Shown: positions 8,187-15,970 of the stretch, one piece after another
How positions within the stretch are numbered: the first letter of the stretch is position 1
How the letters are laid out: each line of letters starts with the position of its first letter
From: Acidobacteriales bacterium 59-55
Lineage (GTDB): Bacteria; Acidobacteriota; Terriglobia; Terriglobales; Acidobacteriaceae
Direction of reading: 5' to 3'
Length of the DNA: 64,000 nucleotides
Assembly (NCBI GenBank): GCA_001897435.1
Contig: MKSV01000006.1
Span: forward strand, 1 to 64,000
The notes under the pieces: generated by a model
Seen by the model: the letters and a program-made list of their open reading frames with translations, nothing else
What the model was told of the DNA's origin: nothing
Database searches by the model: none
Program-made: the position numbers and the translations under genes

Positions 8187-8636
8187 TTACGAGGCTGCGG
8201 TGAGCATCGCGGCGCTGTTGGCCGGTTGCAGGACGAAGGCTTTCTTCGGGCCGCGCTTGCGGGCGACGAGGACGCGGATGCGCTCGATCATCTCGGCGGC
8301 GGAGCAGGCTCCCTTGGGCAGGAAGACATCGGCGGAGCAGGCGCGGTCGAAGGAGTTGACGGTGCCGGAGACGATCATAGCCGGCAGCGCGGGGTGAAGC
8401 TGCTTGGCGCGGCGGACGAGTTCGTTGCCGTCCATGCGGGGCATCAGAAGATCGCAGAGAAGAAGGTCGAGCGAGCCGGGGGCCGACTGTTGCACGATGT
8501 CGAGCGCCTGTTGCGCGCTGCTGACGGAGATGACGCGGTAGCCGCGGGTTTCGAGCAGGAAGGTGCGGACAGAGAGTACTTGTTCGTTGTCGTCGACACA
8601 GAGGATCGTCTTCTTGGGGCGCATGCGGTCTCTCAT
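8187..8636 (-). CDS. single-domain response regulator (receiver protein)
   Basis: A stand-alone CheY-like receiver of about 149 aa. Acidic pocket D15/D16 in ILCVDDNEQ, phospho-acceptor D62 in LLLCDLLMPRMDG, switch Ser/Thr in MIVSGT, and the conserved Lys in FLPKGA. A short C-terminal tail of about 20 residues carries no output domain. No histidine kinase is adjacent. The start is uncertain: ATG 8636 (MRDRM..) or ATG 8624 (MRPKK..); the ORF-track extension to 8849 reads low-complexity upstream DNA. Confidence 0.85.
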   Translation of the reverse strand: MRDRMRPKKTILCVDDNEQVLSVRTFLLETRGYRVISVSSAQQALDIVQQSAPGSLDLLLCDLLMPRMDGNELVRRAKQLHPALPAMIVSGTVNSFDRACSADVFLPKGACSAAEMIERIRVLVARKRGPKKAFVLQPANSAAMLTAAS

Positions 8637-9441
8637 TCTGCCGGAGGCCACGGGTAGGGTGGCGCGGCGGATAGGCCGGAGCCGAGGGGCCTGCTGGTTT
8701 GCAGGCACTCCGGTCCGGAGGGTTGAACGTTCCCCGTGGTCCGGCGCATGCTCCGGAGCGTAGTGGGGCCGGCTGTTCCCTCGCTTCAAAAGAACAGCAG
8801 GCGCGAGCGACGAGGCTCTCCTGTCTGCTTCCGGAGGAAACAGTGCCACCAGTCTGGCAAACGATGCCGCCGGACCATGGGGTGCGAGAGAGGCCGTGTG
8901 CGCAGGTTGCCACGCGACTCCGCGAGCGCGAAGATGTGACTGGCCGCGAGTGCAGCGAAGTCGAAGCCGGACGAACCGGGTTCGGCCTCGCTGCGTTTGC
9001 GGGCAGCGACGGACGCGGGGGGAGGCGCGACTGCGGGCAGTCGGGACCTTCTCTCAACTCAAATTGTCAGAAAACCAGGCGAAAGCAACTTCAGTTTGTC
9101 GACGGCGGCGGCGCACTTTCGATGCGAAGCTGTCGTCAACGCTTGCCAAGAGTACGAAGCCTGACCGGTCTTGGCAACGGCGAAATTCGGGCGAAGACAG
9201 GCGAGATTTGCGCTTGCGCATCCACCGCGGCTCGCAAACCTGCGTGGATAGGGGGGATTGATGTTACAGTCCTGTTGAAATCGGGTGCATCCCGGCTGGA
9301 AAAGGCGTCCCGTTGCAGCGGGAATGGTGCGGCTGGCGACAAACTTTTCAGACGCTTGCCGGAACTTCGCCGGCTTCCCCTGCCCCGCGAGCGGACGGCG
9401 ATGGATCGCGCTGGGCGATTGGGGTTTGAATGATGTTTGTT
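8637..9441. other. long non-coding gap upstream of the suf operon
   Basis: About 800 nt with no convincing gene. The overlapping ORFs on both strands are rich in Arg/Gly/Ser and have no recognisable domain. The only structure I see is an inverted repeat, TTGCCAAGA (9143-9151) with TCTTGGCAA (9169-9177), 17 nt apart. The promoter of the receiver gene presumably lies at the left end. Confidence 0.5.
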
Positions 9442-9485
9442 TTGTCAGAGAACTGTCATAGATTTGTCACAGAATTGTCACAGGT
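9442..9485 (+). promoter_or_regulatory. four tandem 11-bp Pho-box-like units
   Basis: TTGTCAGAGAA, CTGTCATAGAT, TTGTCACAGAA, TTGTCACAGGT follow each other with an exact 11-nt period. This fits the PhoB box layout (7-bp YTGTCAN plus a 4-bp AT-rich spacer, as direct repeats) known from proteobacteria. It ends 4 nt before a possible -35 element of the suf operon. Binding by a PhoB/PhoP-type regulator is inference. Confidence 0.6.
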
Positions 9486-9488
9486 GGG

Positions 9489-9518
9489 TTGAATTCACCA
9501 GGTTTTCCGTGCTACATT
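9489..9518 (+). promoter_or_regulatory. candidate sigma-70-type promoter of the suf operon
   Basis: TTGAAT (9489-9494) and TACATT (9513-9518) are separated by 18 nt, about 70 nt upstream of the Rrf2 regulator start. The assignment is by eye only. Confidence 0.4.
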
Positions 9519-9532
9519 GAAACCATACGAAA

Positions 9533-9566
9533 TTAGTGCTGATTAACGCTCTTTTTAGTACTGATT
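9533..9566 (+). promoter_or_regulatory. direct-repeat operator candidate at the suf promoter
   Basis: TTAGTGCTGATT (9533-9544) and TTAGTACTGATT (9555-9566) match in 11 of 12 positions and start 22 nt apart, two helical turns. They lie just downstream of the predicted transcription start, a place suited to repression by the Rrf2 protein encoded next. Confidence 0.45.
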
Positions 9567-9587: not shown

Positions 9588-10067
9588 ATGTTCAGGCTGA
9601 ACAAGTTGACCGACTATGCTCTCGTCGTGATGCAGTATGTAGCCGGCCACCCGGAGGAGCCTCTGCACACGGCCCGGAGTCTGGCGGCGGCAACCCTGCT
9701 TCCGGTGCCAACCGTGGTGAAGCTGCTTAAAGAGTTGCAGGATCACGGGTTACTGGTCTCCTATCGGGGCGTCAAAGGTGGCTATGCACCATCGCGGCCG
9801 CCCTCGCAGATCACCGTCGCGCAGATCGTCGAGGCGATTGAGGGTTCGATCGGCTTTACCGAGTGCGCTACCGCCCCCGGCCGCTGCACGCTTGAAGGCA
9901 AGTGCCGGGTGCAGGACAACTCCCATATTATCGGACGCACGCTCCAACGCGCTCTGGGAAACATCAAACTTTCAGACCTTACGGCTGAACTTGCGGAGGA
10001 AGCCCGCCCTCCCCGTAAGAGCAACCTCGTTACCTCCATCACCATGAGTCCAGGGAGAGTTCAATGA
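9588..10067 (+). CDS. Rrf2-family Fe-S-sensing regulator of the suf operon
   Basis: Winged-helix Rrf2 protein (159 aa), first gene of the suf operon and probably its autoregulated controller. The HTH is at residues about 28-55 ([24 protein letters not shown]), followed by a wing with VKGGY. Three cysteines, C93, C100 and C106 (C-x6-C-x5-C), occupy the position of the IscR cluster ligands (C-x5-C-x5-C), and H113 could be the fourth ligand. It best resembles the SUF-system regulator subgroup located beside suf genes. ATG 9588 follows GAGAGGAGAGAAAG. The stop overlaps the sufB start (ATGA). Confidence 0.9.
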
Positions 10068-11521
10068 CAGCTACAAACACGATTGAAGAATTTGCCAACC
10101 AGGAATACAAGTGGGGCTTCGTCACCGATGTGGAAGAAGACCGCATTCCTCGCGGGCTGAACGAGGACATTATTCGCCTGATCTCGGCCAAGAAGGAAGA
10201 GCCGGAGTTCATGCTGGAGTGGCGGCTGCGCGCCTTTCGACACTGGATGACGCTGGTGAAGGCGGACGCCGAGCCGAAGTGGGCCCATGTGACCTTCCCC
10301 CAGATCGATTATCAGGACATCGTCTACTACTCCGCGCCGAAGAAGAAGGCGGGCGCCAAGAAGAGCCTGGATGAGGTCGATCCCGAAATTCTGGAGGCCT
10401 ACAGCAAGCTGGGCATCTCTCTGAACGAGCAGAAGCGGTTGCAGGGTGTCGCCGTGGACGCGGTCTTCGACAGCGTCTCGGTCGCGACCACCTTCAAGGC
10501 CAAGCTGGCCAAGGAAGGCATTATCTTCTGTTCCTTCTCCGATGCGGTGAAGGAGCATCCCGAGCTGGTGAAGAAGTACCTGGGCACGGTGGTTCCCTAC
10601 AGCGACAACTTTTACGCAGCTCTGAACGCCGCGGTCTTCAGCGACGGCTCGTTCGTCTACATGCCGAAGGGCGTGCGCTGCCCGATGGAGCTTTCGACCT
10701 ACTTCCGCATCAATGCGGCCGACACCGGCCAGTTCGAGCGCACGCTGATCATCGCCGACGAGGGCAGCCAGGTGAGCTACCTGGAAGGCTGCACGGCCCC
10801 GGCACGCGACGAGAACCAGTTGCACGCGGCAGTGGTGGAACTGGTGGCGCTCGACAACGCCCAGATCAAGTACTCGACGGTGCAGAACTGGTATCCCGGC
10901 GACAAGAATGGCGTCGGCGGCATCTACAACCTGGTGACCAAGCGCGGCAAGTGCGCCGGCGCGAACTCACGGATCTCGTGGACGCAGGTGGAGACGGGCA
11001 GCTCGATTACATGGAAGTATCCGAGCTGCATCCTGGTGGGCGATAACTCGGTCGGCGAGTTCTACTCGGTGGCCTTGTCGAACAACTACCAGCAGGCCGA
11101 TACCGGCACCAAGATGATCCACATCGGCAAGAACACGCGCAGCACCATCGTATCGAAGGGAATCTCGGCCGGGCACGGACAGAATACCTATCGCGGCGGC
11201 GTGAAGATCATGAAGAACGCCACCGGAGCGCGCAACTATACGCAGTGCGACTCGCTGCTGATCGGCGACCAGTGCGGCGCGCATACCTTCCCCTACATCG
11301 AGGTGCGCAACTCAAGCGCCCGCATGGAACACGAGGCTTCGACCTCGAAGGTGGACGAGGACCAGATCTTCTACTTCCGCCAGCGCGGCCTGTCGGCCGA
11401 AGAGGCCGTGTCCATGATTATTAACGGATTTTGCAAACAGGTCTTCCGCGAGCTTCCCATGGAGTTCGCCGTGGAGGCACAGAAGTTGCTCAGTGTCAGT
11501 CTTGAAGGGAGCGTTGGATAA
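10064..11521 (+). CDS. sufB: Fe-S cluster assembly scaffold protein SufB
   Basis: Scaffold subunit of the SufBCD complex on which nascent Fe-S clusters form; cytosolic. 485 aa, typical of SufB. The beta-helical core includes segments such as [17 protein letters not shown]-like sequence (here [14 protein letters not shown]) and the C-terminal [19 protein letters not shown] motif shared with SufD. The start overlaps the Rrf2 stop by 4 nt and the stop is 2 nt before sufC, showing tight co-translation. Confidence 0.97.
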
Positions 11522-11523
11522 AT

Positions 11524-12288
<765 letters not shown>

Positions 12289-12296
12289 GGAGACCC

Positions 12297-13688
12297 ATGA
12301 GCACAATGACACAGACTTCAGGAGCCGGGACCTATCTCGACGCATTCAGCGAGCTGGAGCAGCGCGGCTCCAAACAGCCGGAGTGGCTGCGCTCGCTGCG
12401 GCAGGAGGCTTTCGCCAGCTTCTGCGACACGGGATTTCCCACCATCAAGGACGAGGCTTGGCGCTTCACCAGCGTCGCGCCCATCTCGCAGACCGTCTTC
12501 AGTCTTCCCGAAGCGGGGCCGTCGGGAGTGACCCGGGCAGAGGTCGAGGCGTTCCGCATCGACGGCACCGCCTGCTCGCTGGTCTTCGTCAACGGCCGCT
12601 TCGCGCCTGAGTTGTCGGATCAGCCGAAGCTCGCCGCCGGCGTTCACGCAGGCAGCCTGGGCGAGGCTCTTGCCGGCGATACCGGTGCGCTCGAGCTGCA
12701 ACTGGGCCTGAAGCTGGCCCTGCAGAACGATGCCTTCAGCAGCCTCAACACCGCCTTCATCGAAGACGGCGCCTGCATCCGCATCGCTCGCGGCACGGTT
12801 CTCGAAGCGCCGATTCATCTGCTCTTTCTCTCGACCGGAGCGGAAGAACCGCTGATGTTCCATCATCGCAACCTGATCGTCGCGGAGGCAAACACGCAGG
12901 TCGGCATCGTCGAAGAGCATATCTCGCTGGCCGACGGCGTTACGTTCTCGAACGTGGTCACCGAGTTGATCGCGGCGGAGAACGCCGTGGCCTCGCACTA
13001 CATGATCGAGCGGAAGAACCGGCAGTCGTTCCACGTGGCCACGCTGCGCATTCAGCAGGAGCGGAGCGCCAACGTCAGCTCGCACTCGTTTCTGCTGGGC
13101 GGCGCGCTGGTGCGCAACAACGTCCATCCCGTCTTTGCCGGGGAGGGCGGCGAGTGCCTGATCAACGGTCTGTTTATCGGCGAGGACCGGCAGCACCTGG
13201 ACAACTACATGCTTGTCGAGCACGCCAGCCCGCGCTGCAACAGCCACCAGTACTACAACGGCATCCTGAACGACCACGCGCACGGCGTCTTCCATGGCCG
13301 CATCATCGTGCACAAGGACGCGCAGAAGACCGACTCCAAGCAGACCAATCGCAACCTTCTGCTGTCAGATGACGCGCAGATCGACACCAAGCCGCAACTG
13401 GAGATCTACGCCGACGACGTGAAGTGCACGCACGGCGCGACGATCGGACAGATGGACGACAATGCGCTGTTCTACCTGCGCTCACGCGGTCTCGACGAGA
13501 ATGCCGCGCGCAGCCTGCTGCTGTTCGCCTTCGCGGGCGAGTGTACCGGACGCATCAAGCCCGGCCCTGTGCGCGCCCACATCGAGAAGCTCGTTCGGCG
13601 AGCCCTTCCCAAGATCATCGCGAACGGCGAGGCCGGGGATGGAGGCGAACGGGAGGACAAAGGAAGGAACTGGGAGGAGGTGGGATGA
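12297..13688 (+). CDS. sufD: Fe-S cluster assembly protein SufD
   Basis: Second scaffold-like subunit of SufBCD, needed for iron acquisition by the complex. 463 aa; the C-terminal half shares the beta-helix fold and the TKPQLEIYADDVKCTHGATIG motif with SufB, while the N terminus is divergent, as normal for SufD. ATG 12297 follows AAGGAGACCC. Its last codons overlap the sufS start in the form ATGA. Confidence 0.95.
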   Translation: MSTMTQTSGAGTYLDAFSELEQRGSKQPEWLRSLRQEAFASFCDTGFPTIKDEAWRFTSVAPISQTVFSLPEAGPSGVTRAEVEAFRIDGTACSLVFVNGRFAPELSDQPKLAAGVHAGSLGEALAGDTGALELQLGLKLALQNDAFSSLNTAFIEDGACIRIARGTVLEAPIHLLFLSTGAEEPLMFHHRNLIVAEANTQVGIVEEHISLADGVTFSNVVTELIAAENAVASHYMIERKNRQSFHVATLRIQQERSANVSSHSFLLGGALVRNNVHPVFAGEGGECLINGLFIGEDRQHLDNYMLVEHASPRCNSHQYYNGILNDHAHGVFHGRIIVHKDAQKTDSKQTNRNLLLSDDAQIDTKPQLEIYADDVKCTHGATIGQMDDNALFYLRSRGLDENAARSLLLFAFAGECTGRIKPGPVRAHIEKLVRRALPKIIANGEAGDGGEREDKGRNWEEVG

Positions 13689-14944
13689 GCACGACCCTGA
13701 CAGCATTCCGCACCAGCACATCGAGCGGCTTCGATATTGAACGTGTCCGCGCGGACTTTCCGATCCTCGAACAGCGGGTTCACGACCTGCCGCTCGTCTA
13801 TCTGGACAACGCCGCGACGACGCAGAAGCCGCGCGCGGTCATCGACGCCATCTCCAACTACTACCTCTCGTACAACGCGAACATCCACCGCGGCGTGCAC
13901 CAACTCTCGCAGTCGGCTACCGATGCCTACGAGGCTGCGCGCAAGAGCGTGCAGACGTTTCTGAATGCGGAGGATGCGAAAGAGATTATCTTCGTTCGCG
14001 GCGCGACCGAGGCCATCAATCTGGTCGCGCAGAGCTATGGCCGTCAGCATGTGAACTCCGGCGACGAGATCATCGTGACCGCGATGGAGCACCACTCGAA
14101 CATCGTGCCCTGGCAGATGCTGTGCGAAGAGAAGGGCGCGCATCTGCGCGTGGCTCCCATCAACGACGCGGGCGAACTTCTGCTCGACGAGTTCGAGGCA
14201 ATGCTGAATGCGAAGACGAAGCTGGTCGCCGTCGTGCACACGTCGAACGTGCTGGGCACGGTGAACCCGGTTCGCCGCATCGTCGAGATGGCCCACACCA
14301 AGGGCATTCCGGTGCTCCTCGACGGAGCGCAGGCGGTTCCCCATGGAGGAGTCGACGTCCGCGCGCTCGACTGCGACTTCTATGCCTTCTCCGGCCACAA
14401 GATCTATGGGCCAACGGGAATCGGCATTCTGTACGGCAAGCGGGCGCTGCTCGAAGCCATGCCTCCTTACCAGGGCGGCGGCGACATGATCCGCTCGGTC
14501 ACGTTCGAGAAGACGATCTACAACCAGCTTCCCTATAAGTTCGAAGCGGGTACACCGGACATCGCCGGGGTCGTCGGCCTCGGCGCGGCTATCGAGTATG
14601 TCAATGGAATCGGCCTGAGCGATATCGTCGCGCACGAGGAAGACCTGCTGGCGTACGGCACCGAGGCGCTCGGCGCGATCCCCGGTCTGACGCTGATCGG
14701 GACGGCGAAGGAGAAGGTCAGCGTGCTCTCGTTTGTACTCGAGGGGATTCACCCGCACGACATCGGCACGATTCTGGACCGGCAGGGCATCGCGATCCGC
14801 ACCGGCCACCACTGCGCCCAGCCGCTGATGCAGCGCTTCGGCATTCCGGCGACAGCGCGCGCCTCGCTCGCCGTCTACAACACCGCGCAGGAGATCGATG
14901 CTCTGGTCGCGGGTATTCACAAGGTCAAGGAGGTCTTCGCCTGA
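13685..14944 (+). CDS. sufS: cysteine desulfurase SufS
   Basis: PLP enzyme that removes sulfur from cysteine and passes it to SufU. 419 aa. PLP lysine K239 in SGHKIYGPTG; catalytic cysteine C377 in RTGHHCAQPLM, the group II (SufS/CsdA) context. ATG 13685 overlaps the sufD stop; the ORF-track start at 13424 reads sufD out of frame. The stop codon overlaps the sufU start (TGATG). Confidence 0.96.
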   Translation: MSTTLTAFRTSTSSGFDIERVRADFPILEQRVHDLPLVYLDNAATTQKPRAVIDAISNYYLSYNANIHRGVHQLSQSATDAYEAARKSVQTFLNAEDAKEIIFVRGATEAINLVAQSYGRQHVNSGDEIIVTAMEHHSNIVPWQMLCEEKGAHLRVAPINDAGELLLDEFEAMLNAKTKLVAVVHTSNVLGTVNPVRRIVEMAHTKGIPVLLDGAQAVPHGGVDVRALDCDFYAFSGHKIYGPTGIGILYGKRALLEAMPPYQGGGDMIRSVTFEKTIYNQLPYKFEAGTPDIAGVVGLGAAIEYVNGIGLSDIVAHEEDLLAYGTEALGAIPGLTLIGTAKEKVSVLSFVLEGIHPHDIGTILDRQGIAIRTGHHCAQPLMQRFGIPATARASLAVYNTAQEIDALVAGIHKVKEVFA

Positions 14945-15399
14945 TGTCGGAACTACAGGACCTCTACCAGGAAGTGATTCTGGAGCACAGCAAGCACCCG
15001 CGCAACTTTCGCGGCATGGAGAATGCGAACCTGCAGGCCGAGGGCTATAACCCGCTCTGCGGCGATCACTACACCATCTTCCTCGAAGTCGAAGACGGCA
15101 TCATCCGCGACATCTCATTTCAGGGAGCGGGATGCGCCATCTCCAAGGCCTCGGCGTCGATGATGAGCCAGATTCTGAAGAACGGGACGACGGCTGAAGC
15201 CGAGGAGTTGTTCGAGAAGTTCCACCAGGCGGTGACGGGAAAAGAGTCGGGCAAGGAGCCGGATGCCGTCGGCAGCCTGGGCAAGCTCGAAGCCTTCGCC
15301 GGCGTCGCCGCGTTCCCGACTCGGATTAAATGCGCCACGCTGGCATGGCATACGCTGCACGCCGCGCTCAAGGGCGATCAGGTCGTTTCGACGGAATAG
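14944..15399 (+). CDS. sufU: sulfur transfer protein SufU
   Basis: Zn-containing sulfur acceptor that activates SufS, 151 aa. The three ligand cysteines are in NPLCGD, GAGCAISKAS and RIKCATLAWHT, with the conserved Asp after the first. The insertion of about 20 residues before the third cysteine distinguishes SufU from IscU, so this is the Gram-positive-type helper rather than an IscU scaffold. No sufE or sufA is present. Overlaps sufS by one base. Confidence 0.93.
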   Translation: MSELQDLYQEVILEHSKHPRNFRGMENANLQAEGYNPLCGDHYTIFLEVEDGIIRDISFQGAGCAISKASASMMSQILKNGTTAEAEELFEKFHQAVTGKESGKEPDAVGSLGKLEAFAGVAAFPTRIKCATLAWHTLHAALKGDQVVSTE

Positions 15400-15439: not shown

Positions 15440-15970
15440 ATGGCAAGTCAGGTAGTGCCGCTTACACGCGATTGCCGGGCGACGGAGATCCCCAGCGGAT
15501 CGGTTCACATTCTCGCCGCAGGCACGCCGGTCTTCATCACGCAGAGCCTTGGAGGCAGCTTTACCGTCTCGAACGGATACGGGCAGCTTATGCGCATCGA
15601 CGCCCGCGACGCCGACGCCCTGGGCATGGGGGGAGCCATTCCCGCGTCGGCCGCTACCGAGTTCAGCGAAAAGCTGGTATGGGATGAGCTCAAGACCGTC
15701 TACGATCCGGAGATTCCGGTGAACATCGTCGATCTCGGGCTCGTTTACGCGCTCACCATCACCGAACTCGAGGGCAACCACAACATTCACATCGTCATGT
15801 CGATGACAGCTCCCGGCTGCGGCATGGGAGACGTGATCCGTACCGATGTCGAGGAGAAGCTCGGCCCACTGCCCACGGTCAAAGAGGTCAAGGTCGAGAT
15901 CGTCTTCGATCCGCCGTGGCATCAGGGGCTGATGTCCGAAGCGACGCGGCTGCAACTGGGATTGGATTAA
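15440..15970 (+). CDS. sufT: Fe-S assembly protein SufT (MIP18/DUF59 family)
   Basis: Auxiliary maturation factor for Fe-S proteins. The C-terminal MIP18 domain (residues about 75-170) has VYDPEIPVNIVDLGLVY and the conserved cysteine in TAPGCGMGD; an N-terminal extension of about 70 residues is characteristic of SufT. Its position as last gene of the suf operon, 40 nt after sufU, supports the call. ATG 15440 follows GAAGGAGAAAGAAA. A family B repeat follows the stop. Confidence 0.92.
   Translation: MASQVVPLTRDCRATEIPSGSVHILAAGTPVFITQSLGGSFTVSNGYGQLMRIDARDADALGMGGAIPASAATEFSEKLVWDELKTVYDPEIPVNIVDLGLVYALTITELEGNHNIHIVMSMTAPGCGMGDVIRTDVEEKLGPLPTVKEVKVEIVFDPPWHQGLMSEATRLQLGLD

Follow-up and report, generated by a model that had tools for sequence, protein, structure and literature searches.

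Known control of suf operons by iron, oxidants and Fe-S status runs via regulators of the Rrf2, Fur or OxyR type. The sites of CreBC, KdpE and mycobacterial PhoP are OmpR-family direct repeats with a period of about 11 bp, as is the array described here upstream of a suf operon, and their core words (TTCAC, TTTACA and TCACAGC) differ from the core of this array. In the pho promoters of E. coli, the Pho box has the same strand orientation as the suf array. The E. coli Pho box, the site of PhoB, is composed of 11-bp direct repeats of CTGTCAT with a less conserved 4-bp segment (PMC2648988). In Myxococcus xanthus, suf is controlled by the Rrf2 regulator RisR at a palindrome over the suf promoter with half-sites 7 nt apart, and its induction by stress goes via RisR alone (PMC9973013).

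The window, that is the whole 64,000-nucleotide stretch of DNA analysed, comes from an acidobacterium-like genome and possesses a tandem array at 9442-9485. Direct reading of the sequence and a pattern scan identified four plus-strand units: TTGTCAgagaa (9442-9452), CTGTCAtagat (9453-9463), TTGTCAcagaa (9464-9474) and TTGTCAcagg (9475-9484). The TGTCA cores begin at 9443, 9454, 9465 and 9476, and the four YTGTCAN direct repeats with an exact period of 11 nt described in the earlier note were thus confirmed. The spacers also resemble one another (nAGAa). Allowing up to three mismatches, the four-unit pattern has a single match in the window and none in 100 dinucleotide shuffles. A search of the whole 4.92-Mb genome for three TGTCA units with no more than one mismatch gave the suf site alone. 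Three extra matches appeared in the genome at two mismatches, about the chance number as estimated from family controls. The sequence supports a PhoB/OmpR-family operator as the likely architecture of the array. Like the E. coli Pho box, it shows a TGTCA core, an 11-bp period and head-to-tail repeats upstream of a promoter; unlike that box, it has four units instead of two, precedes suf and is placed upstream of a -35 element rather than replacing it. A minus-strand promoter driven by the array was considered and rejected, as no TAnnnT was found at the spacing seen in relatives, just a weak 9/12 match; the closest minus-strand gene start is more than 500 nt away. A receiver-domain response regulator adjoins the suf promoter region (8187-8849, minus strand), and its family matches span the receiver domain only.

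The array ends at 9485, just before a plausible -35 element TTGAAT (9489-9494, plus strand), which is followed after an 18-nt spacer by a plausible -10 element TACATT (9513-9518, plus strand). Placement before a suf -35, the second claim of the earlier note, therefore held, with the qualification that this -35/-10 pair was missing from the output of a consensus promoter scan, so the assignment of the core promoter rests on position and on relatives. Family suf promoters show an equivalent -10 followed by a GTAC-N7-GTAC dyad, with a spacing similar to that of the RisR palindrome (PMC9973013). This common layout suggests that the core promoter and the Rrf2 operator are probably assigned correctly. 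The counterpart of the dyad here is ATACGAAATTAGTGC (9525-9539, plus strand), a probable SufR/Rrf2 operator. There is also the direct repeat TTAGTGCTGATT / TTAGTACTGATT with 22-nt spacing (9533-9566, plus strand), possibly a second SufR contact. The downstream genes, all on the plus strand, are those of a suf operon, as had been proposed. A SufR-like Rrf2 regulator (9588-10067; TIGR02944, above cut-off) comes first, followed by sufB (10064-11521), sufC (11524-12288), sufD (12297-13688), sufS (13685-14944), sufU (14944-15399) and sufT (15440-15970). The promoter, with its dyad at the -10/start and an Rrf2 gene opening the operon, resembles the RisR/SufR-type control of M. xanthus; it differs in the extra upstream array, which suggests a second input.

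Distribution of the suf genes in the genus was found to be very restricted. SufR was detected at E < 1e-30 in one of 62 genus genomes, namely this genome, and SufB in two of 60. G181, the second genus genome in which SufB matched well, was examined as a possible counterpart and set aside, since its Rrf2 gene is a different one and the array is missing. Among 30 family suf promoters, the array was present in this genome only; the SufR proteins of the 29 others are 44-78% identical. No array was seen either with 28 SufR relatives that are more remote and come from named genomes. The anticipated conservation of the array upstream of suf in relatives thus failed, with one of 30 family suf promoters carrying it and most of the genus lacking suf. 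As suf is nearly absent from the genus and the other family suf promoters have no array, conservation at suf is unusable in favour of the array. Such a distribution looks like acquisition or differential loss of the suf operon, though the GC content of the operon is ordinary (0.616 against 0.618 in the rest of the window). A plasmid was rejected as its source, the similarity being at the level of sufB only with no promoter in common. Since suf with this SufR hardly occurs in the genus, another system must supply Fe-S clusters in most congeners.

The genome possesses phoB-phoR-pstS-pstC-pstA-pstB-phoU. There are two phoU genes (L003 and L004; G000:C7:890071 and 1183774), one within the pst operon and one apart. 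The genus pstS promoters read TTCAC-N6-GTAAC-N6-GTAAC. The own pstS promoter, TTCATagatttGTAACctgtgaTTAAT, carries TTCAT-GTAAC-TTAAT and the own phoB promoter, GTCACagtaggTTAACctgacgGTAACaccgagGTTAC, carries GTCAC-TTAAC-GTAAC-GTTAC, both with an 11-nt period; the last unit of the phoB array overlaps the likely ribosome-binding site. The pho promoters therefore appear to carry a sister array, with the architecture seen at suf and a related unit. The earlier note had proposed a search for the same array upstream of the pst/phoU genes of this genome. Neither the pst nor the phoB promoter has it in its literal TGTCA form; both have related GTAAC-type units at the 11-nt period. Like these boxes of three to four units, the suf array has an 11-nt period, and its units 2-4 match the KTMAY pattern. 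Fourteen of 16 positions are alike between TTCATAGATTTGTAAC of the own pstS promoter and GTCATAGATTTGTCAC of suf, of which the spacer part is unconserved in the pst promoters of close relatives. Unlike E. coli, this genus uses GTAAC/TTCAC units in its pho promoters, and the third base of the core, mostly A in pho units (A in 28/28 aligned sites for the two inner pst units), is C in all four suf units.

A unit matrix was built by pooling 18 genus pst boxes with the own clade held out and was scanned over 1.264 Mb (26% of the genome). With three units, phoB occupied ranks 1-2, a peroxiredoxin site (C3:188681) rank 3, suf rank 4 (20.0) and pstS rank 5 (19.7), against a best reversed-sequence null score of 18.0. 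With four units, suf was third (21.3) behind overlapping phoB frames, the best null score being 17.2. A matrix made from the GTAAC units only (units 2-3) placed suf at rank 9-10, inside the null, with three units and at rank 4, level with the null, with four, and a position-specific matrix likewise did not favour suf. As the pooled matrix favours suf while the GTAAC-only matrix does not, PhoB is compatible with the site and not demonstrated. Exclusion of PhoB on the ground that pst boxes read GTAAC was considered and dropped, given the phoB promoter and the matrix scan. The description as Pho-box-like hence stands in part, upheld by the PhoB/OmpR-type architecture, the pho sister arrays and the pooled ranking and weakened by the GTAAC units of pst and the GTAAC-only matrix.

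Apart from suf, the best matrix site outside the pho genes is found about 100 nt ahead of the aligned start of a gene for a secreted PrxQ-like peroxiredoxin. A TGTMA-N6-TGTMA box with at most one mismatch was observed before this gene in 21 of 30 genus genomes, which are related to one another, against 0.34 expected from shuffles. The box is positioned about 90-120 nt before the peroxiredoxin match (L127-L156), and in some genomes part of the block runs into the end of the gene before it. Variation of the spacers while the TGTCAY and TGTAAA words stay suggests selection. A match at katA (C4:115099) was discarded as chance, as the matching letters are the last codons (CPKCQ-stop) of the Fur/PerR-like gene upstream.

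Analysis of a family sample revealed that three-unit TGTCA arrays form a real motif class, as 214 were found across 199 tabulated genomes against about 7 for a reversed-pattern control. The arrays examined are mostly at promoter-like positions, and many read TGACA-N6-TGACA-N6-TGACA on the gene strand followed about 20 nt further by TAnnnT. Among the genes near them are ribBA and those for B12-binding radical SAM proteins, cupredoxins, cytochromes c, TIGR03118 (PEP-CTERM-associated) proteins and nucleotidyltransferases. In ten genomes, one response-regulator gene is preceded at about 55-200 nt by an array that reads TGTCA on the strand of the gene, and many of the 20 best orthologues of this gene have at least two TGTCA-like units at -80 to -165. 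The encoded protein is PhoB/RpaB/MtrA-like, below the NCBIfam cut-offs shown. Counting it as present at a match of E < 1e-65 to a reference query (L122:2018-2752), arrays occur in 81 of 107 family genomes with the regulator and in 12 of 92 without it; the Fisher p of 7e-20 ignores kinship and is too optimistic because the relatedness of the genomes was uncorrected. The position of arrays before the regulator gene itself is evidence independent of this p-value. This uncharacterised response regulator (L122:2018-2752, minus strand; L055:1581-2354, plus strand; and orthologues) defines a family-wide regulon together with the TGTCA/TGACA 11-nt arrays. The TGTCA arrays of relatives go with this PhoB-like regulator and not with the pst genes.

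The regulator is present in several genomes of the same genus and is absent from this genome, being found among none of its ten Trans_reg_C proteins, of which PhoB is the nearest paralogue (35-41% identity). The own response regulators were also considered as autoregulated owners of the array and rejected, as none of the ten genes has an upstream TGTCA pair at up to one mismatch. The own TIGR03118 gene (1536-2792 of L106) retains a weak array of the relatives' type (L106:1501-1527) with the matching regulator missing. Two near-identical response regulators far apart in one contig (L213 and L214; G000:C7:405527 and 1550723) represent a recent duplication. Like the family arrays, the suf array shows the exact TGTCA word, an 11-nt period and at least three units. 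It differs in lacking the cognate regulator and in orientation, the apparent targets (B12 radical SAM, cupredoxin, cytochrome c, TIGR03118 and ribBA genes) having TGACA on the gene strand and the -10 about 20 nt on, whereas suf has TGTCA with the -10 32 nt on.

Taken with its promoter context, the sister arrays of the pho promoters, the pooled matrix ranking over 26% of the genome, the peroxiredoxin box and the tie of family arrays to a PhoB-like regulator, the array is rather probably an operator of a PhoB/OmpR-family regulator and an upstream activator site of suf. Against this reading stand the absence here of the regulator paired with TGTCA arrays in relatives, the GTAAC of the two inner pst units and the GTAAC-only matrix result, the lack of an orthologous array at any other suf operon read, and the difference from the relatives' targets in orientation and in distance to the -10. 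Within the operator reading, PhoB is the best single candidate in this genome, though a tentative one that falls short of even chances; otherwise the owner would be one of the other OmpR-type regulators of the genome. As a special case, the site may be a true Pho box through which PhoB activates suf under phosphate limitation, with the same tentative standing. The own phoB and pstS boxes with equal period and related unit, the rank of suf beside them in the pooled scan, and the fit to KTMAY with its 14/16 agreement point to this, but the C in all four suf units where inner pst units have A, the GTAAC-only result and the confinement of the array to this one suf promoter point away from it. No publication linking PhoB to suf was found either, in a searched literature outside which most subscription journals lay. 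Of the inputs suggested by the earlier note, another OmpR-family regulator is thus well supported, while phosphate limitation is possible and unproven.

An unlikely alternative is that the array is a relic without a cognate protein, either because suf came from a lineage with the TGTCA-array regulator or because the regulator was lost here. Presence of this regulator in congeners and not here, the near absence of suf from the genus and the weak array left at the own TIGR03118 gene agree with such a history. Maintenance is instead suggested by the four units, all intact in a promoter stretch rich in AT; neither the 29 other family promoters nor the 28 distant SufR relatives supplied a donor suf promoter with an array, and in GC the suf genes do not differ from the remaining window. 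Less probable still is the absence of any regulator, with the array arising by chance or by neutral tandem duplication of an 11-bp unit. Slippage would give spacers as alike as those observed, and selection has no orthologous array to show it, but the four-unit pattern never occurred in shuffles, the array is placed exactly upstream of the -35, and a regulatory motif found across the family shares its word and period. Least of all can a regulator outside the OmpR family be expected, such as a CarH-type B12 photoreceptor, whose operators consist of 11-bp direct repeats in tandem, three or four in number, and can take in the -35 (PMC9304148). Their consensus nnnnTnnACAn (PMC9304148) needs a T three bases before ACA, which none of the four units has on either strand, and the family arrays co-occur with an OmpR-family gene; a CarH operator was therefore rejected.

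On the operator reading, regulator monomers would bind head to tail on successive 11-bp turns, all on the same side of the helix and immediately before the suf -35, and may recruit RNA polymerase. With a start placed 7-8 nt after the -10, the array would span about -84 to -46. It would add an activating input to a promoter which has an Rrf2/SufR-type dyad just after the -10. It is conceivable, though rather doubtful, that a PhoB-family regulator, possibly PhoB, directly controls both suf and the secreted peroxiredoxin beside the usual SufR control. If true, phosphate or envelope stress would be wired into iron-sulfur and thiol defence, and such an input would couple Fe-S cluster assembly to the phosphate or envelope state of the cell. 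Beyond this locus, the comparison reveals an uncharacterised PhoB-like regulon that spans the family and has a clear binding word, along with a genus-wide peroxiredoxin box.
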